From Thiomonas sp. FB-6 (lineage in GTDB: Bacteria; Pseudomonadota; Gammaproteobacteria; Burkholderiales; Burkholderiaceae_C): a stretch of DNA of 64,000 nt. The notes below the pieces were generated by a model. The model was given only the letters and a program-made list of their open reading frames with translations, did no database searches and was not told the DNA's origin. The translations under genes and the position numbers were made by a program. The stretch lies in contig NZ_KB898479.1 of the NCBI RefSeq assembly GCF_000377645.1, positions 1 through 64,000 on the forward strand, given 5' to 3'. Below, piece after piece: positions 40,549 to 51,564 of the stretch (position 1 is the first letter of the stretch; the number at the start of each line of letters is the position of its first letter).

Positions 40549-42921
40549 TCAGGATGCGCGCGACGGGGACACCATCTGCCATGGCGGCACGGCGCGCGGG
40601 CCGGTGGCCTCCAGCCGGGCGACCGACGCGGGTGCCAGTTGCCACCAGCGCGCGCGGTCGCCCTTGTGCAGCTTGGCCTGGTACATCGCCGCATCGGCCT
40701 GGCGCAGCAGGCCCTCGGGGTCCTGCGCATCCAGCGGGAACAGGGCCAGGCCCATGGACATGCCCACGCTGGCGCGGCATCCCGGCGCCAGCTCGAAGGG
40801 CTGTTCGACCGCCGCGTGCAGGCGGCCCAGCACGTCGCTCAGCTGGGCCAGCACCTGGGCGGAGTCGATCTGTTCGATGACCACGACGAACTCGTCGCCG
40901 CCCAGGCGCGCCAGCACGTCGAACTTGCGGATCGCGCCGCGCAGGCGCTGCCCGATCTCGCGCAGCAGCACGTCGCCCACATCGTGGCCCCAGGTGTCAT
41001 TGACCGGCTTGAAATCGTCCAGGTCGAGCATGCCCACCGCCAGCACGGTGCCGTCGCGCCGCGCCGCCGCCAGTGCCTGCGGAAGGTACTGGTTGAGCGC
41101 GAAGCGGTTGGGCAGGCCGGTCAGCAGGTCATGGCGCGCGCGGTGCGATTCCTCCAGTTGCAGGTCGTTGAGCCGGCGCTTGGTGTCCAGCTCGTCCAGC
41201 CCGTGGCCCAGCAGTTCGGCCACGCGCTGGCACAGCTCCGTGGTCGCGTCGTCGAAGGCCTCGGGCTGCGGGGACACGAACACCAGCACCGCCCAGATGG
41301 AGGCGCCGCGGAACACCGGCGCGGCCAGCGCAGCGCGCCATTCGTGGCGCCGCATCGACCCGCGCCACGGCGCCAGGCTGGCATCGCCCAGCAGGTCGTT
41401 GCAGCAGACGTTGCGATGGCTGTTCCACACCCGGATCACCAGCGGGGACTTGTCGGCGTCGTGCAGGCTGATGCGCAGCGCGTCGAGCTGATCGGCCCCG
41501 CTGCCGGCGCGCGCGATCACCTCGATGCGCCCGGCCTCGTCCGGGCGCGCCATCCACGCGGCGTGGAACTGCGTGCCCTCGGTGAGGGTCTGGCAAGTGC
41601 GCAGCAGCATGTCGGGCACGCTGCGCGCCTGCAACAGCACGTCGACCTCGCGCATCAGCGCGCGGTACAGGCTTTGCAGTTGCTCCATGCGCCGGCGCTG
41701 CTCCAGGCCCTGCAAGGCGCGCTGCACCGCCAGGCCCGCGTTGACCAGCACGTCCGCGGTGGCCGCATCGAGGGCCTCGGCTTCGTCCAGGCACAAGACC
41801 AGCACCAGGCTGCCCCCCGCGCGCCCGGGTCCGTCGCCGCGCAGCGGCAACGCGGCCACCGACGCGCCGGGCAGGCCCGCGCCGCCTCCGGCCGGCGTCC
41901 GTGCAGGATCCCGCGGCGCCTCCAGGCCGCAGAAGCAGGGCTGGGCCGCATCGCAGGCCCGCAGCGCCTGCTCACGCCCGGGCAGGGTCCGCGAGCCCTC
42001 GCGCGCCGCGAAGCTGGCCAGCACGGTCAGATCCCGGGAAACCGCGGGGCCGCCCCAAGCGTTCTCGAGCCCCTGGGCGGGCGCGCCGGACGCGGCCCGG
42101 CCCTGGGGGCGGTCTTCCACGGGCTCGCTCGCACGGGCGATCCAGGCCTGGCTCAGGCCGCCGCGCTGCACCGCCACCCGGCACACGGTGTGGAGGTAGT
42201 TCTCCAGGTCCTCGGCCTGCGCGCCGAGCTGGCCCAGTTCCGCGAGCAGGGCGTTCAGGCGCGCCAGACGGTGCGCGCGCAGCGATTGGTGCTCGCGCAA
42301 TTGCAATTCCTGCTGGGCCCGCAGGCGCCAGGCCTGGCCGCGCGCGAAGCGCTGCTGCGCCCCGCGCACCGCCAGCACCACGAACAACAGGTAACCCGCG
42401 GCCAGCACGGCCGCCCCGTGCGCGGCCGGGGCATCGATCAGGCTCAGCCAGAGCACCAGGGGCAACAGCGCGCCGGCCGCGAAACCCAGGGCGGCGACGG
42501 CATCGAAGGCCAGCGCCAGCGCGACGCCTCCGGCCACGCAGGCGACGACGAAGGCGGCCAGGCCCGCCGCCAGCCCCGCGCGCGGCGCGATCCACCACGG
42601 CGCGAGTCCCCACAGCAGGCCGTTGAGTGCGGCGGCCACGCGCAGCAGGCGGTGCATGCGCGCGGGCCGCCAGGGCCGCGACGCGCGCCGGGACAGCAGC
42701 AGCGCCGGGGATTGCGAGGCCAGCACCAGCAGCGCCCAGGCCGTCACCGCCAGCTCGCCCGCCGCGGGAGCGAACAACCATGCGCAGGCCGCGCAGGCGG
42801 CCGCCTGCGCGAGGGCCACCAGGCCCAGCGAGGCCCGCAGACGGGCCTCCTGCTCCGCGCCAAGCGGCATGCCCGGAGACGGGGACGGCGTCGCGGCCTG
42901 CGATGAATGCTCGTGCTGCAC
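40549..42921 (-). CDS. Membrane-anchored GAF-GAF-GGDEF diguanylate cyclase
   Basis: 790 residues. Five to six hydrophobic segments (about 30-190), a coiled-coil linker, a GAF-like domain (about 235-405), a second (about 430-575), and GGDEF (about 595-755) with RLGGDEF at 672-678 and DLDDFKPVND upstream. All signature residues for cyclic-di-GMP synthesis are present. I see no RxxD I-site at the usual place five residues before the motif (RKFD occurs at 666-669 and could serve). Residues about 270-296 are encoded by a dispersed repeat copy inside the first GAF domain. It is divergent from the large GGDEF-EAL gene. Confidence 0.88.
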   Translation of the reverse strand: MQHEHSSQAATPSPSPGMPLGAEQEARLRASLGLVALAQAAACAACAWLFAPAAGELAVTAWALLVLASQSPALLLSRRASRPWRPARMHRLLRVAAALNGLLWGLAPWWIAPRAGLAAGLAAFVVACVAGGVALALAFDAVAALGFAAGALLPLVLWLSLIDAPAAHGAAVLAAGYLLFVVLAVRGAQQRFARGQAWRLRAQQELQLREHQSLRAHRLARLNALLAELGQLGAQAEDLENYLHTVCRVAVQRGGLSQAWIARASEPVEDRPQGRAASGAPAQGLENAWGGPAVSRDLTVLASFAAREGSRTLPGREQALRACDAAQPCFCGLEAPRDPARTPAGGGAGLPGASVAALPLRGDGPGRAGGSLVLVLCLDEAEALDAATADVLVNAGLAVQRALQGLEQRRRMEQLQSLYRALMREVDVLLQARSVPDMLLRTCQTLTEGTQFHAAWMARPDEAGRIEVIARAGSGADQLDALRISLHDADKSPLVIRVWNSHRNVCCNDLLGDASLAPWRGSMRRHEWRAALAAPVFRGASIWAVLVFVSPQPEAFDDATTELCQRVAELLGHGLDELDTKRRLNDLQLEESHRARHDLLTGLPNRFALNQYLPQALAAARRDGTVLAVGMLDLDDFKPVNDTWGHDVGDVLLREIGQRLRGAIRKFDVLARLGGDEFVVVIEQIDSAQVLAQLSDVLGRLHAAVEQPFELAPGCRASVGMSMGLALFPLDAQDPEGLLRQADAAMYQAKLHKGDRARWWQLAPASVARLEATGPRAVPPWQMVSPSRAS
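42034..42114 (+). repeat. Dispersed structured repeat, copy C, inside a coding sequence
   Basis: Shares GGGGCCGCCCCAAG and CCCGGCCCTGGGGG with copies A and B at matching spacing, but its stem 1 is decayed (GGGAAAC against GTTCTCGAG). It is read in frame, antisense to the repeat, as part of the 790-residue GGDEF protein. Confidence 0.75.
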
Positions 42922-43234
42922 CTTGTTGCGGCCCTGGTCGGTTGCTGGGAACTACGCTTCGAAGTCCTGCGGACGGGCCGACCCCGAAGTCGCGCCCTCG
43001 TCTGCGTGAGAGGGATTTTGCGTCCTCGGCGCGGCCATGGCATCGGGCGCGGCTCGCAAAACCGCAATGGGCCCGGGTTTTCGTGACATTGTTCACGCAT
43101 GCGTGGCGGCGATGCATCCGACAATGGCCTGCCGTTCGCGCCTGGACCCTCCCCGGGGTGGAGCTCATGCCTGCGTGCGGCCGGATCCTGCGGGCCGATG
43201 CCTCCGCAGACCTCGCCCGACGCCCCGACCCGCG
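42922..43234. other. Divergent control region between two cyclic-di-GMP genes
   Basis: 313 bases with no gene I trust. It contains GTGACATTGTTCAC at 43083-43096, a perfect GTGA-N6-TCAC half-site pair as bound by CRP/Vfr-type proteins. No clear -10/-35 pair was identified for either gene. Confidence 0.5.
43083..43096. promoter_or_regulatory. CRP/Vfr-like site
   Basis: GTGA-CATTGT-TCAC, symmetric and with the 6-base spacer of CRP sites; flanks are C and G rather than T and A. About 140-160 bases from both starts. Confidence 0.45.
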
Positions 43235-46200
43235 ATGAAACCGCAGACCGCGCAGCAAGCCCCGCCTCGGCGCACGCCGGCGGCCGCCGAAGCGGCCTGG
43301 CAGCCCGCGGACGAGGCGGCCGAGCCCGACGCCGCCTGGCTCGACCAGGCCGCCGCACTGGCCGCGCAGGCCCTGGACGTGAGGGCCGCCCTGTCGCGCC
43401 TGCGCGACGACGACCAGGAATGGCTGCAGGGGCTGCACGGGGACGCCGAAACCTGCCGGGCCTTGCTGCGAGCCGCGCAGGGCCTGCCCGCGCCGCGCGT
43501 CGAGGGGCTCGACGCGGCCAGCGCGCCCGGCGCCGAAGCCGGCCCCTGCTCGCCGCAGCCGCCGCGGCTCGGTCTGTGCGAGCTCGAGACCCTGTGCGAT
43601 GCGCAGGGCCGCGAACTCGCCGCGCTGTGGATCGGAGACCCCGAGGCGCGTTCGCCCAGCCCGCGCCAGCGCGAACTGCTGCGCGGCATCGCGCGCCAGG
43701 CCCTGGATCTGCTGCAGGCCCGGCGTGCCGCGCAGCACCTGAGCCGCGAGCGGCGGCGCCTGCAGCGCCGCGCGGATTTCACCGCGGTACTGGCCCGCTC
43801 CAACCAGCTGATCGCGCAGGCGGCCGACGAACAGCTCATGCTGCAGGACATCTGCGACATGACCGTATCCGACGGAGGCCTGCGCCTGGCCTGGGTGGGG
43901 CGCCCCGACGACGAGGGTGAGCTGCGCTACCTGGCCACCGCCGGCGAGCGCGACTACCTGGAGGGACTGCGCCTGTCCATCCGCCCCGAGCGCCCCGAGG
44001 GGCGTGGCGCGGCGGGGCGCGCCTGGCGCGAGCAGCGCGCGTATTTCCTGGCTTCCTTCGCGCGCTCGCCGATGCTCGAGCCCTGGCGCGAGCGCGCCGC
44101 GCGCTGCGGCATGCGCGCCACGGCCACGCTGCCCATCCGCCGCGGCGGGGGTATGTGGGGGGTGTTCACGGTCATGCACGGCGACGAGGACGCCTTCGAC
44201 GAGCAGTTGCAGACCCTGCTCACCGAACTGGCGCACAACATCTCGCGCGGCCTCGATCGCCTGGACGCCGCGCGCCGCGAACGGGAACTGACCGGCCTGC
44301 AGCATGCGCTGCTGGACCATACGCTGGCCGGCATCGTGGTCGTGCGGGGGCGTTTCATCGTCAGCGCCAACCGGCGCTTCGCCCACATGCTGGGTTACGA
44401 CGACGCCGAGCAACTGGTCGGGCGCTCCACGCGCATGGTCTACGCCTCGCAGGCCGAGTACCTGCGCGTGGGCAACCTGTATCCGGGCCTGCGCCAGCAC
44501 GGCAGCGCGCTGGCCATGGACGTTCGCGTGCTGCGCCGCGACGGCGAGGAACTGCTGTGCGACGTCTCCGCGGGCCTGACCCGCGACGACGAGGCCACCT
44601 CGGTGTGGACCTTCCAGGACGTCACCGAACGCGCCCGGCTGCAGCAGCGCCTGCGCCACGAGGCGCTGCACGACCTGCTGACCGACCTGCCCAACCGGCG
44701 CGCGCTGGAGCAATACCTGCCGCAGGCGCTGGCGCGCGCACGGCGCAACGGCCGCGTGGTCGCGGTGGGCATGCTCGACCTGGACGATTTCAAGCCGGTC
44801 AACGACAGTTTCGGCCACGACGCCGGCGACCGCCTGCTGCAGGAGGTCGCGCAGCGCCTGCGTTCGCTGCTGCGCGAATGCGATTTCCTGGCGCGCCTGG
44901 GAGGCGACGAATTCGTCGTGGTCGTCGAGGAACTCGAGGCGCGGCACCTGGCGCGCCAGCTCAGCCGGCTGCTGCGCCGCCTGCACGCCGCGGTGGAGCG
45001 CCCCTTCGGCCTCGGCGCGACGGTGCAGGCCAGCGTGGGCATGACCATGGGCCTGGCCGCCTTTCCCGGCGACGGCGCCGACGGCGACACCCTGCTGCGC
45101 CAGGCCGACGCCGCGCTGTACCAGGTGAAGGCGCGCAAGCAGCAGCGCCGGCGCTGGTGGCAGCTCGGCGTGCGCCAGGCGGCCGAGCCGGGCGAGAACT
45201 CCGCCTTCGACCCCTACGGCCCGGAGGCCGCCCAGCTGCTGGGCCAGGTGCGCGCGCTGCTGGCCGAGGCCAGCGAGCGCTTCGCGCAGGCCTTCTACGA
45301 CGACGCGGGGCGGGACGGGCAGACGCGGGCCATCCTCGAGTCCCTGCAGCCCCGCGAGCTGCAGGGACTGCGCGCGCGCCACGCCGAGCATCTGCGCTTC
45401 GTGCTGGACGCGGCGACGCCGCGCGAGGCCGTGCTGCGCCAGGCGCGGCGCCTGGGCGAGGTCCACGCGCTGGTGGGAGTCAGCGCCGAGCACATGATCC
45501 GCCCGCAGGGTCTGTACCGCCGCCTGGCCGGCGAGGCCCTGGGGGACTCCGGGCTGCCGGCGCGCGCGCGCTTCCAGCTGCTGCGCCTGATCGAGGAGCG
45601 CCTGGAGGACGACCTGCAGGCCCAGATGGGCGCGCTGGCCGAGGTCGCCTCGGCCTATTTCTCGGCGCTGACCCCGGAGGCGCTGCCGGCGCGCGCGCTG
45701 TGGCGCGACGCGGTGCACGAGCTCATCGCCCCCATCGGCCGCCTGCCGGGCCTGCTGGCCTGCCACGTGATGCGCCCGGACACCCAGGGCGTGTTCCAGC
45801 GCGAGGCCGGCAGCGGCCCGCGCTCGGCGGCCATCGTCGAGTGGCTGGGGCGCGCACGCTTCAACGCCTGCCTGGAGAACACCGGCTCCGACGACAGCGG
45901 GCTGCTGGTGCAGGCCTGGCACAGCGCGCGCATCCACCACTGCGACTCCTATGCCTCGGACCCCCGCGTGCGGCACTGGAGCGGCATGGCCGACGAACTC
46001 GGCGTGCGCAGCGCGCTGGCCATTCCGGTGCCCGGCGAGCTGGGGCAGCCGGTGTTCGTGCTCGGCCTCTTCGGCGCCTGGCCGAACCAGTTCTCCAGCC
46101 CGGGCATGCAGCAGTTCGCGCGCACGCTGCAGCAGCATGCGGCGCGGGTGTGGCAATCCTGCCGGCGCGCGAGTTCCTGCGAACCCCTGGCCCAGGCGCA

Positions 46201-47206
46201 GGCGCAGGTGTGCCGCGAGCGCCTGTTCTCCGGCGGCCTGGAGATGTTCGTGCAGCCGGTGGTGGACCTGGTCGACGGGTCCTGTCGCCGCGTGGAAGCC
46301 CTGGCGCGCCTGCGCCTGGCCGACGGCACGCTGCTGGCGCCCTCGCGCTTCCTGCCCATCCTGGGCGATACCGAGCTCGACCGGCTGCTGCGCCTGGGAC
46401 TCGACCAGGTCTGCCAGCAACTGCGCGCCTGGGATGCGCAGGGCCTGGGCATGGAGGCCGCGCTGAACCTGCCTCCGTCCACGCTGCTGGACCCCGAATG
46501 CACGCGCTGGGTGGAGCAGGCGCTGCGGCGCCACGGCATCGCGCCGCAGCGCCTGACCCTGGAACTGCTGGAGAACCAGGACGTGGACATGCGCACCCAG
46601 AGCGCCGCGCTGCATGGGCTCAAGGCCCTGGGCGTGCGCCTGGCGATGGACGACCTCGGCTCCGGCTACAGCAGCCTGCAGCGCCTGTCCATGCTGCCCT
46701 TCGACAGCATCAAGCTGGACCAGGGCCTGACCCTGGAACTGCGCCGCGCGCCGCTGCAGACCCTGGGCCTGATGCGGGCGATCATCCAGCTGGGCCACGA
46801 CCTGCAGCGCCAGATCGTGGTGGAGGGGGCGGAGGACGACGGCGTGCTGGAGGCCGTGCTGGCGCTGGGCGCGACGCGCGCCCAGGGCTACGGCCTGGCC
46901 CGCCCCATGCCCGCGGCCGAGTTCCCGCGCTGGCTGGCCGGCTTCCGCCTGGGGGTCGACGCCACCCGGGTGAGCACCTGGCTGGGCGCGCTGGCGGCGC
47001 ACTGGGTGGGCCTTCGCATGCCGCGGCGCGAGGTCTCGGCGGCGCTGCAGCGCTTCCTGGCGCGCTCGGCGCCGCCCGAGGTGCGCACCTGGCATGCGCA
47101 GGCCCGCGGCCACGGCGTCACCGCCGAGCTGGCCCGCGAACGCCTGACCGACTGGCTGGTGGGACGGGTGCGCGCGGAGCAGGCCCCGGCGGCGGCGCGG
47201 GAGTGA
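43235..47206 (+). CDS. GAF-PAS-GGDEF-globin-GAF-EAL cyclic-di-GMP protein
   Basis: 1323 residues, no membrane segment. In order: GAF-like (185-345), PAS (355-465), GGDEF (475-635; RLGGDEF at 554-560), globin-coupled-sensor-like domain (660-800) with LGEVHALVGV and a candidate proximal heme ligand His744, a second GAF-like domain (825-975), EAL (990-1235) and an 80-residue tail. EAL residues look complete: EAL at 1021-1023, N1078, E1110, DD 1139-1140, K1160, E1197, Q1217. So it may both make and break cyclic-di-GMP, with a gas- or redox-sensing heme between. Start at 43235 (MKPQTAQQ); the upstream frame is open but not conserved in style. GGDEF part is a close paralogue of the divergent 790-residue protein (both end with RWWQL). 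Confidence 0.87.
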   Translation: MKPQTAQQAPPRRTPAAAEAAWQPADEAAEPDAAWLDQAAALAAQALDVRAALSRLRDDDQEWLQGLHGDAETCRALLRAAQGLPAPRVEGLDAASAPGAEAGPCSPQPPRLGLCELETLCDAQGRELAALWIGDPEARSPSPRQRELLRGIARQALDLLQARRAAQHLSRERRRLQRRADFTAVLARSNQLIAQAADEQLMLQDICDMTVSDGGLRLAWVGRPDDEGELRYLATAGERDYLEGLRLSIRPERPEGRGAAGRAWREQRAYFLASFARSPMLEPWRERAARCGMRATATLPIRRGGGMWGVFTVMHGDEDAFDEQLQTLLTELAHNISRGLDRLDAARRERELTGLQHALLDHTLAGIVVVRGRFIVSANRRFAHMLGYDDAEQLVGRSTRMVYASQAEYLRVGNLYPGLRQHGSALAMDVRVLRRDGEELLCDVSAGLTRDDEATSVWTFQDVTERARLQQRLRHEALHDLLTDLPNRRALEQYLPQALARARRNGRVVAVGMLDLDDFKPVNDSFGHDAGDRLLQEVAQRLRSLLRECDFLARLGGDEFVVVVEELEARHLARQLSRLLRRLHAAVERPFGLGATVQASVGMTMGLAAFPGDGADGDTLLRQADAALYQVKARKQQRRRWWQLGVRQAAEPGENSAFDPYGPEAAQLLGQVRALLAEASERFAQAFYDDAGRDGQTRAILESLQPRELQGLRARHAEHLRFVLDAATPREAVLRQARRLGEVHALVGVSAEHMIRPQGLYRRLAGEALGDSGLPARARFQLLRLIEERLEDDLQAQMGALAEVASAYFSALTPEALPARALWRDAVHELIAPIGRLPGLLACHVMRPDTQGVFQREAGSGPRSAAIVEWLGRARFNACLENTGSDDSGLLVQAWHSARIHHCDSYASDPRVRHWSGMADELGVRSALAIPVPGELGQPVFVLGLFGAWPNQFSSPGMQQFARTLQQHAARVWQSCRRASSCEPLAQAQAQVCRERLFSGGLEMFVQPVVDLVDGSCRRVEALARLRLADGTLLAPSRFLPILGDTELDRLLRLGLDQVCQQLRAWDAQGLGMEAALNLPPSTLLDPECTRWVEQALRRHGIAPQRLTLELLENQDVDMRTQSAALHGLKALGVRLAMDDLGSGYSSLQRLSMLPFDSIKLDQGLTLELRRAPLQTLGLMRAIIQLGHDLQRQIVVEGAEDDGVLEAVLALGATRAQGYGLARPMPAAEFPRWLAGFRLGVDATRVSTWLGALAAHWVGLRMPRREVSAALQRFLARSAPPEVRTWHAQARGHGVTAELARERLTDWLVGRVRAEQAPAAARE

Positions 47207-47309
47207 GAAGCCAGGGCGCGCCGAGGCCACGCCAGACTGTTCGAAGCTTGATACCGATTTAATGGGTCCGGCAGAAGAATAGCCTGCAACATCCTGGTTG
47301 CGGGGAAGC

Positions 47310-49703
47310 ATGAGCGCAGGTCCCTTTCCATTCATCGCCGAGCACGGCGGACGCTTCGCGGCGGCCCGGCTGCTGGCCGCCCTGACGCGCAGGGACCGCG
47401 GAGCGCGCGACGCGCTCACCGGGCTGGCCACCCGCGTCGCCCTCGAGCGCCGCGTGGCCGAGCTCGCGGCCTCCCCGGCCGCGGGCGAGCGCCTGGCGGT
47501 GCTGGTGCTGGACGTGTACCGTTTCGGCAGCATCAACGAGGCCTGGGGCTGGAAGGCCGGCGACGCGGTGCTGGTCGAACTGGCGCGGCGCCTGCGCGGG
47601 CTCGGCGGCAGCGAGATGCTGGCGCGGGTGGGGGCGGACTCCATCGGGGTGCTGCTGCGCGGCAGCGCCGCCGACGACTGGCGCGGCGTGGTCGAGCGCA
47701 TGATCAAGAGCCTGCGCGAGCCTTTCGCGGTCGCCGCGGCCAGCTCGCGCAAGCTGTCCGCCTCGGTGGGCTGCGCCTTGTTCCCGCAGGACGCCACCAG
47801 CGCCTCACGCCTGCTCGGGCTGGCCGAAGCGGCCGTTTTCAGCCAGGCCGAGCGCGACCTGCAGCAGCGCAGCGAGGACCTCGACCCCTACGGCGAGCAA
47901 AGCGCCGACACCATGGCCTGGCTGCAGCGCTTCCTGGGGCCGCAGCAGCCGCGCCTGAACCAGGAATTCCTCGAAGGCCTCGGACTGTGCGAAGCCCCCC
48001 CCGAGGGCGGCGCCAGCGGGCTGCCGGCGCGCGAGGCCGTGCGCCTGCTGCCCGAGCTGGACGGCTACGTGCCCCTGCTGCTGGCGCCGGGACTGCGCCA
48101 GGCCCGGCACCGCGAACACGCCGAGGCCCTGGGGCGCCTGCTGGCGGCCCTGGGCCTGCCCGCGCAGGTGGGGGTGGGGGCGATGGGCCGGCTGTACCAG
48201 GCCGTGGCGGGGCTGGCGCACCGCATCCCCGCGCGCCTGAGCGAGCGCGCGCTGCTGCTGGGCACGCTGCTGCGGCGCATGGAGGCCGACATCGGCTTCC
48301 AGCACCAGGGCGCGGAGGCGCTGCGCCACGAACTGATCGAGCGCCTGCGCCAGCTAGCCGCGGGCATGCAGGCGGCGCGCCGGCGCAGCGACCTGCTGGA
48401 CATGGTGGTGGAGGCGCTGCAGCACCTGCCCTACCTGGCCTGCTGCGCCATCTACACGCAGGACGCGCGCGGCGGCTTCGTGCTGGAGGCGCAAAGCCCG
48501 GGCCACGAAGCCTGGGGCGGCGGGAGCACGCCGTCGGCGCACGACCCCGACACCGCGCAGGCCCGCGGCGGCGCGCTGGCGCGCTGCTGGCTGCGCGCGG
48601 GCATCGAGCTCGGCCCGGACATCGCGCGCGCGGCGCGCCAGGGCCAGGACTGGGCCGGGCAACTGCTGCGCCAGGGGGTGCGCAGCTCGGTGGCGGTGCC
48701 GGTGCTCGACGCCGCCGGCAACATGCTGGTGGTGCTGCAGCTGTACGGACGCCTGCCCGGGCAGTTCTCCACCCAGCTGATGCGCCATGCGCTGGACTCG
48801 CTGAGCGCCTCGCTGGCCGCGGAGCTGGCGCGCGTGGGCGAGGGCATCGCGCTGCCGGCGGTGGCCGCCGACGAGCGTGCGCTGTGGCGCCAGCGCCTGT
48901 TCGGCGGCGGGCTGCGCATGTTCATGCAGCCCATCGTCGACCTGCGGGAGCAGCGCTGCACCCGGGTGGAGGCGCTGGCGCGGCTGCAGCTCGACGAGCG
49001 CTCGCTGCTCACGCCCGGGCGCTTCCTGCCGGTGCTGGGCCAGCACGAGCTCGACCGGCTGTTCCTCGACGGCCTGCACCAGTCGCTGCAGGCGCTGGCC
49101 GACTGGGAGCGCCAGGGCCTGAAACTGGACCTTTCGCTCAACCTGCCTCCGTCCACGCTGCGCCACGCCGATTGCGCGGACTGGGTGCGTTCGGCACTGG
49201 AGCGCCGCGGCATCGACCCGCGCCGGCTCAGCCTGGAGATCCTGGAGGACCGCGACGTGGCCACGCAGGCCACCATGCGCGACACCACCGACCGCCTGCG
49301 CGCGCTGGGCGTGCGCCTGGCGCTGGACGACCTGGGCGCCGGCTACAGCAGCCTGCTGCGGCTCAACAGCCTTCCCATCGACATGGTCAAGGTGGACCAG
49401 GGCCTGGTGCACGGCATCGTCGCCAACAACCCGCGCGCGGTGCCGCTGGTCACCGGGCTGGTCGACCTGGCCCGGCGCCTCGACCTGAGCGTGACCATCG
49501 AGGGCCTGGAGACGCAGATCCTGCTGGAATACGCGCAGTACCTGCAGGCCGACTTCGGCCAGGGCATGGCGATCTCGCCGCCGCTGGAGCCGCGGCGCCT
49601 GCCGGGGTGGCTGCGCGCCTGGCGCATGCCGGCGCTGTCGGGCATCGCGCCCTTCGCCTCGATGTTCGGCCCCGACGCGCGCGCCACCGGCCGCCTGTTG
49701 TGA
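47310..49703 (+). CDS. Degenerate GGDEF - degenerate globin - GAF - EAL protein
   Basis: 797 residues, paralogue of the preceding protein without its GAF-PAS front. The GGDEF signature is RVGADSI (106-112), so cyclase activity is not expected. In the globin-like part (190-345) LGRLLAALGLPAQ aligns with LGEVHALVGVSAE of the neighbour, placing Leu278 at the heme histidine, so heme binding is probably lost. The EAL domain (525-765) keeps EAL (554-556), N611, E643, DD 673-674, K694, E731 and Q751, so phosphodiesterase activity is plausible. GGGGAAGC precedes the ATG at 47310; an upstream in-frame TTG exists. Nearest in style to FimX-type regulators, but this is by analogy only. Confidence 0.85.
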   Translation: MSAGPFPFIAEHGGRFAAARLLAALTRRDRGARDALTGLATRVALERRVAELAASPAAGERLAVLVLDVYRFGSINEAWGWKAGDAVLVELARRLRGLGGSEMLARVGADSIGVLLRGSAADDWRGVVERMIKSLREPFAVAAASSRKLSASVGCALFPQDATSASRLLGLAEAAVFSQAERDLQQRSEDLDPYGEQSADTMAWLQRFLGPQQPRLNQEFLEGLGLCEAPPEGGASGLPAREAVRLLPELDGYVPLLLAPGLRQARHREHAEALGRLLAALGLPAQVGVGAMGRLYQAVAGLAHRIPARLSERALLLGTLLRRMEADIGFQHQGAEALRHELIERLRQLAAGMQAARRRSDLLDMVVEALQHLPYLACCAIYTQDARGGFVLEAQSPGHEAWGGGSTPSAHDPDTAQARGGALARCWLRAGIELGPDIARAARQGQDWAGQLLRQGVRSSVAVPVLDAAGNMLVVLQLYGRLPGQFSTQLMRHALDSLSASLAAELARVGEGIALPAVAADERALWRQRLFGGGLRMFMQPIVDLREQRCTRVEALARLQLDERSLLTPGRFLPVLGQHELDRLFLDGLHQSLQALADWERQGLKLDLSLNLPPSTLRHADCADWVRSALERRGIDPRRLSLEILEDRDVATQATMRDTTDRLRALGVRLALDDLGAGYSSLLRLNSLPIDMVKVDQGLVHGIVANNPRAVPLVTGLVDLARRLDLSVTIEGLETQILLEYAQYLQADFGQGMAISPPLEPRRLPGWLRAWRMPALSGIAPFASMFGPDARATGRLL

Positions 49704-49734
49704 TGTCACCGCATTGTCATGAACCTGTACGAAG

Positions 49735-51564
49735 ATGGGCGACAAAGTTCCCTTTGCCGCCATGGCCGCCATCGCCCTGCCCTTGCCCCCAGTAGACGCC
49801 GAGGCGGATCTGCTTTCGGCCTTTCATGAGATCCTGGATCGGAAAGGGGTCCACACGGTGTTCCAGCCGGTGCTGGACTTGCGCAACCGAAGCTTCCACG
49901 GCTTCGAGGCGCTGATCCGCGGCCCCGCCGGAAGCCCGCTGGAACGCCCCGACCGCCTGTTCGACTGCGCGCGGCGCAGCGGGCGCGTGGCCGAATTCGA
50001 TCGCCTGTGCGTGCAGACCGGCATCGAGGCCTTCGCCGCCGCCGCGCTGCCCGGGCACCTGTTCCTGAACGTCACCGAGGCGCTGTTCGACTCGGGCTGG
50101 TTCGCGCTGGAACCCACGCTGCGCTGGCTGCAGGAGCGGGGGCTGCCGCCGTCGCGCCTGGTGCTCGAGCTGCTGGAGTCGGATTCGCTGGCCGAGGACA
50201 CCCAGGCCTTCACCGCGGCGCGCTTCCTGCGCGACCTGGGCTACGGCCTGGCGCTGGACGACCTGGGCCAGGGCTTCGGGCGCTTCGCGCTGTGGAAACG
50301 CCTGCGTCCGCGCTACCTGAAGGTGGACCGCAGCTACACCGCCGACCTGGCCTCCGACCCCTTCAAGGCCGCCTTCGTGCGCTCCATGCTGCTGCTGGCC
50401 GAGGCCAGCCAGTCGGTGGTGGTGGCCGAGGGCGTGGAGTCCGAGCGCGACCTGCTGACCCTGCGCGAGATCGGCGTGAGCATGGCCCAGGGCTACTTCA
50501 TCGCGCGCCCGCAGAGCAGCCCCGCCACCGAGCCCGGCGCGCACACCCGCGAGGTGCTGGGCAACCCGCAGCCGGCGCTGCACGCGCTGGCCAGCCGCGG
50601 CAGCATCGAGCAATCGGTGCTGGGGCTGGCGCGGCCCATCACCCCGGTGCAGCCGCAGGTCAAGCTGGACCACGTGCTGCGCATGCTGGAGCAGGACCCG
50701 GACCTGACCTCGGTGCCCATCGTCGACGGCCTGGGCCAGGCGCTGGGCATCATCAACCGCTACGTGGTCGCCGACCGGCTGTTCCGCCCGCATGTGCGCG
50801 ACCTGTTCGGCAACAAGCCCTGCACCCTGGTGATGAGCAGCGACGTGCTGCGCCTGGACGCCAAGAGCAGCCTGCAGCAGGCCAGCAGCCTGATCGCCGA
50901 CTCCAGCTACCGCCACGCCACCGAGGGCGTGCTGGTCACCGACGGCGGGCAGTACCGCGGGCTGCTGCTGGTGGGCGACCTGCTGCGCCTGGTGACCGAG
51001 TTCCAGGTGCAGGCGGCTCGCTACGCCAACCCGCTGACCCTGCTGCCGGGCAACGTGCCGATCAACGACTGCATCGACCGCTGGCTGCACGAGGAGCGCC
51101 TGTTCGCGGCGGCCTACGCCGACATCGACAATTTCAAGCCCTTCAACGACAAGTTCGGCTACCGCATGGGCGACGAGATCATCCTCATGCTGGCCGACCT
51201 GCTGCGCACCCACCTGCCCCCGGGAGAGCAGTTCCTGGCGCATATCGGGGGCGACGATTTCGTCGTGCTGTCCGGCTCGCGGGACTGGGAGGCGCAGTTG
51301 CAGGCGGTGCTGCGGGCCTTCGAGGCCGGCGTGGCGCAGTTCTTCGAGCCCGCGGTGCTGGAACAGAAGGGCTACTGGTCGGAGAACCGGCGCGGCGACG
51401 CGATGTTCTTTCCCGTGCCCACGCTGTCCATCGGGGCCTTCGTGGTCAACCCCGGCCACTTCGACTCCCACCGCGAGGTGGCCAACGTGCTGGCCGAACT
51501 CAAGCGCGCGGCCAAGCGCCTGCCCGGAAACGCCCTGTTCGTGGACCGGCGGCGCTACGGCTGA
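49735..51564 (+). CDS. EAL-CBS-GGDEF protein
   Basis: 609 residues, soluble. An EAL domain comes first (25-260; FEALIRG at 57-63, DD at 175-176, VAEGVES), then a pair of CBS-type repeats (295-425), then GGDEF (430-609; HIGGDDF at 503-509, ADIDNFKPFND). In EAL, VLELLES, LALDDLGQGFGRF and YLKVDRS keep the catalytic set, and the DDLGQGFG variant of DDFGxGYS is noted. CBS pairs bind adenine nucleotides in other proteins, so energy sensing is possible. It starts 31 bases after the previous gene in the same direction. ATG at 49735; 49762 is possible. Confidence 0.88.
   Translation: MGDKVPFAAMAAIALPLPPVDAEADLLSAFHEILDRKGVHTVFQPVLDLRNRSFHGFEALIRGPAGSPLERPDRLFDCARRSGRVAEFDRLCVQTGIEAFAAAALPGHLFLNVTEALFDSGWFALEPTLRWLQERGLPPSRLVLELLESDSLAEDTQAFTAARFLRDLGYGLALDDLGQGFGRFALWKRLRPRYLKVDRSYTADLASDPFKAAFVRSMLLLAEASQSVVVAEGVESERDLLTLREIGVSMAQGYFIARPQSSPATEPGAHTREVLGNPQPALHALASRGSIEQSVLGLARPITPVQPQVKLDHVLRMLEQDPDLTSVPIVDGLGQALGIINRYVVADRLFRPHVRDLFGNKPCTLVMSSDVLRLDAKSSLQQASSLIADSSYRHATEGVLVTDGGQYRGLLLVGDLLRLVTEFQVQAARYANPLTLLPGNVPINDCIDRWLHEERLFAAAYADIDNFKPFNDKFGYRMGDEIILMLADLLRTHLPPGEQFLAHIGGDDFVVLSGSRDWEAQLQAVLRAFEAGVAQFFEPAVLEQKGYWSENRRGDAMFFPVPTLSIGAFVVNPGHFDSHREVANVLAELKRAAKRLPGNALFVDRRRYG

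Follow-up and report, generated by a model that had tools for sequence, protein, structure and literature searches.

The window, a stretch of 64,000 nucleotides of Thiomonas sp. FB-6 (contig NZ_KB898479.1), encodes a protein in which a globin-like region lies between a c-di-GMP synthase and a c-di-GMP hydrolase, and the question is whether this region is a globin-coupled sensor (GCS) domain and, if so, which of the two enzymes it would address. A preliminary description had proposed that a heme sensor in this central place could act as a shared switch, favouring synthesis or breakdown depending on O2, NO, or redox.

Domain order and output domains

The frame encodes 1323 aa with zero internal stops, and its features are given below with their coordinates in the window.

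43235–47206, + strand: GAF-PAS-GGDEF-globin-GAF-EAL protein with a further C-terminal domain, 1323 aa (open frame, Pfam, dN/dS)
43823–44254, + strand: GAF domain, residues 197–340 (Pfam GAF_2, E 3.7e-26)
44306–44623, + strand: PAS domain, residues 358–463 (Pfam PAS, E 7e-7)
44663–45145, + strand: GGDEF (diguanylate cyclase) domain, residues 477–637 (Pfam, E 2.8e-44, motif, dN/dS)
45155–45214, + strand: GGDEF-globin linker, residues 641–660 (low model confidence, dN/dS)
45215–45670, + strand: GCS-type globin domain, residues 661–812 (Pfam Protoglobin, PDB sequence matches, AlphaFold, Foldseek)
45716–46189, + strand: second GAF domain, residues 828–985 (Pfam count of two GAF_2 stretches, family profile, model fold)
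46217–46906, + strand: EAL (phosphodiesterase) domain, residues 995–1224 (Pfam, E 1.2e-49, eight positions, dN/dS)
46931–47203, + strand: C-terminal helical domain, residues 1233–1323 (alignment, model helices)

The limits of the second GAF domain come from a family profile built with the window protein's own sequence among its rows, and they agree with an alpha/beta stretch of the model. The GGDEF motif is intact at residues 556–560, with the I-site RECD at 547–550, and E1021, N1078, E1110, D1139, D1140, K1160, E1197, and Q1217, which we take to be the catalytic EAL positions, are all present; the earlier claim that both sets of residues are complete is thus borne out. All eight EAL positions are kept in 99 of the 106 rows of the family collected here (one row has a single change; six are cut, gapped, or degenerate), and by this measure the EAL domain is the best-kept output of the family. 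The window protein probably both synthesises and degrades c-di-GMP. Among the NCBIfam matches listed, only TIGR00254, a general GGDEF domain model, exceeded its cut-off, all equivalog models remaining below their own.

The dN/dS ratio between the window protein and its six orthologs is below 0.6 in each named domain: 0.04–0.20 for PAS, 0.085–0.156 for GGDEF, 0.07–0.105 for EAL, and 0.23–0.36 for the globin. Purifying selection acts strongly on both catalytic domains, and the globin shows clear selection as well; the GGDEF-globin linker, of 20 codons only, gives 0.40–1.46.

The C-terminal domain carries a family motif, HW...CPL...WH...H, which is partly lost in the window protein. It was defined on 20 of 24 sequences hand-picked from rows with at least 70 residues after EAL (L012, L017, L019, and L040, in which the motif is poorer, were dropped). 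None of the 20 members gave a convincing Pfam match to this domain, and its hhalign comparison with the sole CZB-bearing paralog gave a probability of 1.1%; its identification as CZB is supported by neither.

The globin domain and its candidate heme residues

On the single sequence, the Pfam Protoglobin match at residues 664–784 is weak (E 2.2e-5, 24.9 bits versus the curated cut-off of 25), while a DNA-level genome scan gave 28.8 bits at the window globin, above the cut-off. Compared alone with the PDB, the domain matched GsGCS (E 0.0032), Tlr1989 (0.031), BpeGReg (0.39), and one unrelated protein (0.48). The 92-row family profile matched Tlr1989, HemAT, an anti-anti-sigma factor (7o0i), GsGCS, and AfGcHK with E values between 1.2e-5 and 0.0042. 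The remaining six matches of this profile, at E of at least 0.035, were unrelated. The structure prediction suggested in the preliminary description returned a 3-over-3 globin fold akin to HemAT, DosC, and GsGCS, with a pLDDT of 86.9. Foldseek placed DosC, Tlr1989, BpeGReg, and GsGCS closest to this model, and its top 24 matches are all sensor globin domains with probability 1.00. Pfam order, PDB matches, and the modelled fold agree that the globin stands between a GAF-PAS-GGDEF half and a GAF-EAL half, as had been described. It occupies residues 661–812 of 1323, behind GGDEF, and is N-terminal solely within the globin-GAF-EAL half.

The candidate heme residues and one further conserved histidine are as follows.

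45296–45298, + strand: Tyr688, aligned with distal TyrB10 (PDB alignments; Tyr kept in 81 of the 106 rows)
45380–45382, + strand: His716, aligned with HisE11 (His66) of GsGCS (PDB alignments; across the 106 rows, Gln 69 times and His 23 times)
45389–45391, + strand: His719, a histidine at E11 + 3 that 85 of the 106 family rows share
45464–45466, + strand: His744, aligned with the proximal heme ligand HisF8 (PDB alignments; His in 87 of 106 rows)

The LGEVHALVGV stretch and His744 lie mid-protein where they had been placed before, His744 within helix 730–747 of the AlphaFold model, and this residue supplies the proximal HisF8 of a GCS globin. The window protein and all six orthologs retain both TyrB10 and HisF8. 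We regard Tyr688, His716, and His744 as candidate heme residues, and the domain may bind heme and a gas ligand.

The family, its variants, and the half probably addressed by the globin

The search for further proteins of this order found GGDEF-globin-GAF-EAL in 90 of the 106 collected family ORFs, and the same order occurs in other families of the class, so that a unique or artefactual domain order is rejected. Of the central heme sensor originally proposed, the GCS-type globin with candidate heme residues stands, but the protein is not a one-off. The family is large, little described, and multiplied in one bacterial group related to Thiomonas: the globin profile found 2–20 matches in each of the 28 genus genomes searched (28/28), with all candidates scored, while further genome searches scored up to 9, 8, or 5 first-look candidates per genome and listed long sets of matches in part, so that their counts are lower bounds. 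A plasmid origin gained no support: among the matches listed, the whole protein found no plasmid place covering 80% of the query, and at E 1e-3 globin-GAF matched a single plasmid, of Caballeronia, with 28.5% identity over 79%.

It should be noted that L034–L113 come from a scan with one GAF motif that kept 80 of 126 relatives, so the frequencies given here are not unbiased. Organism names of relatives are record titles, many of them of metagenome bins. Own-genome members and L025–L028 supplied the rows of the domain profiles (for GGDEF, nine own-genome members only), so these rows match by construction. The 106 rows include near-copies (L025 equals L053 within the module); the family alignment holds 92 of them, 14 near-copies or cut copies having been dropped, and the alignment with references uses 65 of the 75 listed. 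The family tree is quick and unrooted, carries a long-branch warning, and leaves out five of the 106 rows with incomplete EAL.

The C-terminal half also stands by itself. Globin-GAF-EAL without GGDEF is found in 12 of 106 family ORFs, and the own genome has four such paralogs: L010, L011, and L013, with Protoglobin over the Pfam cut-off, and L021, detected only by the family profile, of which it is itself a row. Among the fused paralogs, the inputs before GGDEF differ (GAF-PAS, FIST-PAS, MASE1-GAF), and globin-GAF-EAL is constant. In L145, globin-GAF precedes GAF-GGDEF-EAL, which argues that globin-GAF acts as a sensor unit ahead of its output.

Two genes flank the protein.

47310–49703, + strand: tandem paralog with degenerate GGDEF (GADSI), globin-like domain, GAF, and intact EAL (Pfam, family profile)
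40549–42921, − strand: divergent neighbour of GAF-GGDEF architecture, lacking both globin and EAL (Pfam)

The tandem paralog is taken from the in-frame ATG at 47310 (the listed ORF starts at TTG 47298) and has Leu in place of HisF8; a tandem copy lies complete beside five orthologs and is cut by the contig end at a sixth. The GGDEF of the divergent neighbour is the nearest non-family match in the genome among the matches listed (64%), and we counted this gene as support for separate halves.

We consider it reasonably probable that the protein is a hybrid c-di-GMP enzyme whose two halves each have sensors of their own. The N-terminal one would be a GGDEF cyclase with an inhibitory I-site, governed by a GAF-PAS input, and the C-terminal one an EAL phosphodiesterase, presumably the main output, governed by a GCS-type heme globin and a GAF. 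HisF8 would serve as the proximal ligand, with TyrB10 and HisE11 on the distal side. A ligand (O2 or NO) or redox change at the heme would shift the dimer bundle of the globin G and H helices, and this shift would pass through the following GAF to alter EAL activity. Because the globin-GAF-EAL half exists without GGDEF in the same genome, the globin is most simply read as the N-terminal sensor of that half, which is where we depart from the shared switch of the preliminary description. The globin may also shift the balance between cyclase and phosphodiesterase, since the length of the GGDEF-globin linker is rather constant.

The alternatives differ in what they make of the middle position. An internal heme driving GGDEF and EAL oppositely, for example O2 towards breakdown and NO or reduced heme towards synthesis, seems to us rather unlikely: the GGDEF half owns a GAF-PAS sensor, the globin of DcpG is N-terminal, the C-terminal half occurs without GGDEF as noted above, and the linker is predicted at low confidence (below 50 at residues 650–655). 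Linker lengths on either side of the globin nevertheless favour such a two-way switch, being rather constant (17–18 residues from GGDEF to globin in 62 of 94 and 15 residues from globin to GAF in 74 of 104), and so do the correlated divergence of GGDEF and globin (r = 0.60, reached in 0 of 1000 permutations) and the opposite effects of O2 and NO on DcpG, a GCS with GGDEF and EAL (PMC10882959, seen in part). The correlation of EAL with the globin is similar (r = 0.61); the constant gap and similar r values both point to a possible coupling of the globin to GGDEF as well.

A globin with a mainly dimerising or structural role, its heme dispensable or absent and the real signals carried by GAF and PAS, appears improbable. 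HisF8 is missing in 19 of 106 family rows and in three of 14 own-genome members. The tandem neighbour is one of these three, and its HisF8-less globin is as constrained as that of the window protein (dN/dS 0.18–0.23 versus 0.23–0.36); against this, most family rows, the window protein, and its six orthologs keep HisF8, the last two with TyrB10. That the central helical domain is no globin is hardly credible. The borderline single-sequence score and the lack of a Pfam Protoglobin match in five of 14 own-genome members (L019, L020, L021, L022, and the tandem neighbour) favour it, but seven own-genome members exceed the cut-off, and a chance match is rejected on the family profile, AlphaFold model, and Foldseek, which all rank sensor globins first.

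Counted against separately sensed halves are the gap constancy, the similar r values, the Pfam score, the five members without Protoglobin, the sensor domains described as N-terminal in Acidithiobacillus, and the pTM of 0.48 of an 860-aa model, from which relative domain placement is therefore not readable. A further point against them is that F8 is Gln in the closest two paralogs of the own genome, which means that this architecture can do without that heme ligand. As a speculative and doubtful extension, heme-bearing and heme-less members might form a genus-wide tuned array, dimerising mutually, and the tandem paralog, with its dead GGDEF, its globin lacking HisF8, and its live EAL, might be a dedicated hetero-partner of the window protein; the HisF8/HisE11 pair would make the window protein a redox or NO switch and not simply an O2 sensor, and a sister group with conserved Gln at F8 and His kept at E11 may hold heme from the distal side.

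The family puts a globin sensor between two opposing c-di-GMP enzymes, an arrangement common among the ORFs collected. Its members differ naturally in whether they have the heme ligands, whether they have GGDEF, and whether globin-GAF opens the protein or lies inside it, and these differences make it directly testable which half a sensor addresses in GGDEF-EAL hybrids. The family suggests O2, NO, or redox as a main c-di-GMP input in these bacteria, some of whose named relatives are sulfur oxidisers.

Comparison with known globin sensors

A literature search by hyphenated architecture names, which are a poor search key, returned no paper. To our knowledge, and as far as the accessible parts of the literature go, those c-di-GMP enzymes whose globin sensor has been characterised carry it at the N-terminus. 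DosC/YddV, BpeGReg, and PccGCS have an N-terminal globin and a single GGDEF output and, in the portions of the sources available, differ from the window protein by this position and by having no EAL. DosC and BpeGReg share the GCS fold of the window globin in Foldseek, and TyrB10 and HisF8 of BpeGReg align with Tyr688 and His744. GsGCS of Geobacter sulfurreducens (2w31), the best single-sequence PDB match, has a different output part; its HisE11 and HisF8 align with His716 and His744, a bis-His state being only predicted for the window globin. In GsGCS, His66(E11) ligates heme, giving hexacoordination (PMC4476040, seen in part).

The GCS-HD-GYP of Vibrio fluvialis, as described in the part of the source at hand, has a GCS globin ahead of a c-di-GMP phosphodiesterase, as in the C-terminal half of the window protein, but with HD-GYP instead of EAL, without GGDEF, and with the globin N-terminal. 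Among Acidithiobacillus, which are acidophiles, Protoglobin was counted at 80 versus 387 GGDEF-EAL proteins (Table 2, PMC6416229), with AFE_1712 given as Protoglobin-GGDEF-EAL-CZB and a GCS-EAL on an A. caldus element (text and Table 3 of the same paper). The domain set of AFE_1712-type proteins is close to that of the window protein; compared by description, the globin is first as written there and in the middle here, and the Acidithiobacillus papers, in the parts available, write or describe sensor domains, Protoglobin among them, as lying at the N-terminus.

DcpG of Paenibacillus dendritiformis shares with the window protein a GCS globin, GGDEF, and EAL, and in the available part of its description gas controls both activities (PMC10882959). 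Globin sensors with GGDEF and EAL are known already from DcpG and Acidithiobacillus; new here is the globin between GGDEF and EAL. The order of DcpG is globin-GGDEF-EAL, whereas that of the window protein is GGDEF-globin-GAF-EAL, with an extra GAF.

Domain organization and the central globin

The domains of the 1323-residue protein (the window protein) were assigned from Pfam, supplemented by a family profile for the second GAF domain.

Domain assignment of the window protein
43235–47206, + strand: open frame, 1323 aa
Residues 197–340: GAF (Pfam)
Residues 358–463: PAS (Pfam)
Residues 477–637: GGDEF (Pfam)
Residues 664–784: Protoglobin (Pfam)
Residues 828–985: second GAF (second stretch counted by Pfam, placed by family profile)
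Residues 995–1224: EAL (Pfam)

The preliminary description of a globin between GGDEF and EAL is confirmed, and its statement that both enzymatic domains keep their full residues also holds: the GGDEF motif occupies 556–560 and RECD 547–550, and all eight EAL positions, which we take to have catalytic roles, are present (E1021, N1078, E1110, D1139, D1140, K1160, E1197, and Q1217). EAL is followed by a helical domain that is conserved but has no name in Pfam. At 46931–47203 and the equivalent place in relatives (C-terminal alignment A6), this domain shows the conserved pattern HW...CPL...WH...H, for which Pfam gave no convincing match; the pattern resembles a Cys-His metal or redox site, and its Cys is absent from the window protein.

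Sequence and structural predictions agree in assigning the central domain to the sensor globins. The weakest line is single-sequence Pfam, where the 24.9 bits fall just short of the cut-off (25) and a scan at the DNA level scores 28.8 bits; for the 14 proteins of this genome that share the globin-GAF-EAL module, seven are above the cut-off, two below it (the window protein and L017), and five have no match. As a single query, the domain matched GsGCS (E = 0.0032), Tlr1989 (0.031), and BpeGReg (0.39); the penicillin-binding protein that followed at 0.48 is unrelated. A 92-row family profile matched Tlr1989 (1.2e-5), HemAT (1.4e-4), the anti-anti-sigma factor 7o0i (8.1e-4), GsGCS (0.0026), and AfGcHK (0.0042), the remaining six of 11 matches being unrelated at E of 0.035 or worse. 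The AlphaFold model (mean pLDDT 86.9, pTM 0.79; helices 663–671, 673–691, 695–702, 706–723, 730–747, 752–770, and 776–812) has a globin fold: the top 24 Foldseek matches are all sensor globin domains, among them DosC, Tlr1989, BpeGReg, GsGCS, AfGcHK, and HemAT, with probability 1.00 and a TM-score on the query of 0.59–0.66.

Candidate heme residues and their loss

In two alignments, His744, Tyr688, and His716 of the window protein align with HisF8, TyrB10, and His66 of GsGCS, the last being described as an E11 heme ligand (PMC4476040). His744, which the preliminary description had expected to face heme, is the candidate HisF8. Among the 106 family open reading frames (ORFs), F8 is His in 87 and B10 is Tyr in 81, while E11 is Gln in 69 and His in 23; the position of His719 is His in 85. 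The six nearest orthologs (L034–L039) all retain HisF8 and TyrB10, and five have HisE11 (Arg in L039).

Eleven of the 14 own-genome members have HisF8. The closest paralogs, L014 (49%) and L019 (48%), carry Gln at F8, and the seven tree neighbors of L014 (L041–L046 and L048) likewise combine GlnF8 with HisE11, which indicates that this loss of HisF8 is old and has been kept. On these residues, the globin of L014 and its seven tree-mates is possibly heme-less or distally ligated. All eight have His both at E11 and three residues later.

Distribution and inheritance of the family

The module is preceded by GGDEF in 10 of the 14 own-genome proteins and not in four (L010, L011, L013, and L021). 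Together with L016, a globin-GGDEF protein of classical order, the 14 would account for the 15 globin-profile matches in this genome. The fused proteins differ in their N-terminal inputs (GAF-PAS, FIST-PAS, MASE1-GAF): L022 (2399–7723, −) has FIST-PAS in front of GGDEF-globin-GAF-EAL, and L012 has MASE1. The C-terminal CZB match of L017 is weak and does not reach its cut-off. One fused member, the tandem paralog at 47310–49703 (+), has a degenerate GADSI in place of GGDEF and a globin without HisF8 and TyrB10, with EAL intact; the pair is retained beside the orthologs in L034 and L036–L039, with a contig-cut copy in L035. Four successive c-di-GMP genes occupy 40549–51564: GAF-GGDEF (−), the window protein, the tandem paralog, and EAL-CBS-GGDEF (49735–51564), of reversed domain order. 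The 4.2 Mb genome has 77 places matching the window protein's domains.

The order GGDEF-globin-EAL is shared by 90 of the 106 ORFs (14 own, the rest from other genomes); 12 are globin-EAL, and in four GGDEF-globin ORFs no EAL was scored in frame. All 28 genomes of the genus, own included, have 2–20 globin-profile matches at E of 0.001. Since only part of the candidates was scored per genome, the wider counts are lower bounds: at least five of 150 sampled genomes of the taxonomic family have a full-length globin-GAF-EAL match, at least 36 of 369 genomes of the class match globin-GAF at 1e-10 (the own genome and at least 12 others exceeding 100 bits), and at least 51 of 398 in the phylum sample match the globin profile. 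Among the phylum matches listed, all outside the own genome reach at most 42.2 bits, as expected for other sensor globins. The public-genome scan gave 126 relatives, 80 of which were kept; the titles of the records mention Thiomonas, Halothiobacillus, Aquitalea, Acetobacter, Komagataeibacter, Parasulfuritortus, Rhodanobacter, Oleiagrimonas, Nitrospirae bins, and many Proteobacteria bins. Other families of the class contributed 11 loci, eight of them GGDEF-globin-GAF-EAL. In L140 the GGDEF match in front is only partial, in L143 GGDEF is missing, and L145, with an N-terminal globin-GAF cassette before GAF-GGDEF-EAL, is another arrangement of this sensor unit. Globin-GGDEF-EAL order occurs in five of 19 loci from other phylum genomes (L115, L123, L125, L127, and L130).

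On a quick unrooted tree of 101 rows, GGDEF presence requires two changes (shuffled mean 11.5, 0/500 as low) and HisF8 five. Distances in 52 of 88 fused rows, near-copies removed, correlate between GGDEF and globin (r = 0.60), GGDEF and EAL (0.50), and globin and EAL (0.61), with 0/1000 permutations as high in each case. The few GGDEF changes and the correlated distances suggest that the fused form is old and has been passed on as one unit. In comparison with the six orthologs, dN/dS is 0.085–0.156 for GGDEF, 0.07–0.105 for EAL, 0.23–0.36 for the globin, 0.34–0.53 for the C-terminus, and 0.31–0.53 for the N-terminal 190 residues; for the linker (0.40–1.46), 20 codons are too few to fix a value. 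The globin of the tandem paralog, which lacks HisF8, is equally constrained (0.18–0.23 against five orthologs).

Proposed mode of action and comparison with known systems

The preliminary interpretation of the central globin as a switch between synthase and hydrolase is partly supported: the globin does lie between them, and the simplest reading is that one chain would combine two sensed halves, the EAL half receiving its input from the globin. Purely by analogy, EAL activity would be expected to rise with O2 or on oxidation of the heme. A true two-way switch, in which the heme globin would act on both GGDEF and EAL, is a less likely rival that we keep alive; it draws on the rather constant spacing on either side of the globin and on DcpG, in which O2 favors breakdown and NO favors synthesis (PMC10882959).

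The interest of these data lies more in the family than in the single gene, namely in the internal position, the copy number, and the natural loss of heme ligands. The titles and abstract openings surveyed, a scope excluding figures and most subscription journals, contained neither an internal globin order nor a genus-wide expansion; further literature drawn on was PMC3680402, PMC3770913, PMC2829063, PMC6956133, and PMC8357829. N-terminal protoglobin or PAS domains are described as common O2 sensors of c-di-GMP proteins (PMC8846402), and in A. caldus sensor domains are placed in N-terminal regions (PMC4331095). In Acidithiobacillia, Protoglobin is counted at 80 against 387 GGDEF-EAL proteins, AFE_1712 is written as Protoglobin-GGDEF-EAL-CZB, and a GCS-EAL protein is located on an A. 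caldus element (PMC6416229). Beside these systems, the window protein is a new variant of the globin-coupled c-di-GMP enzymes.
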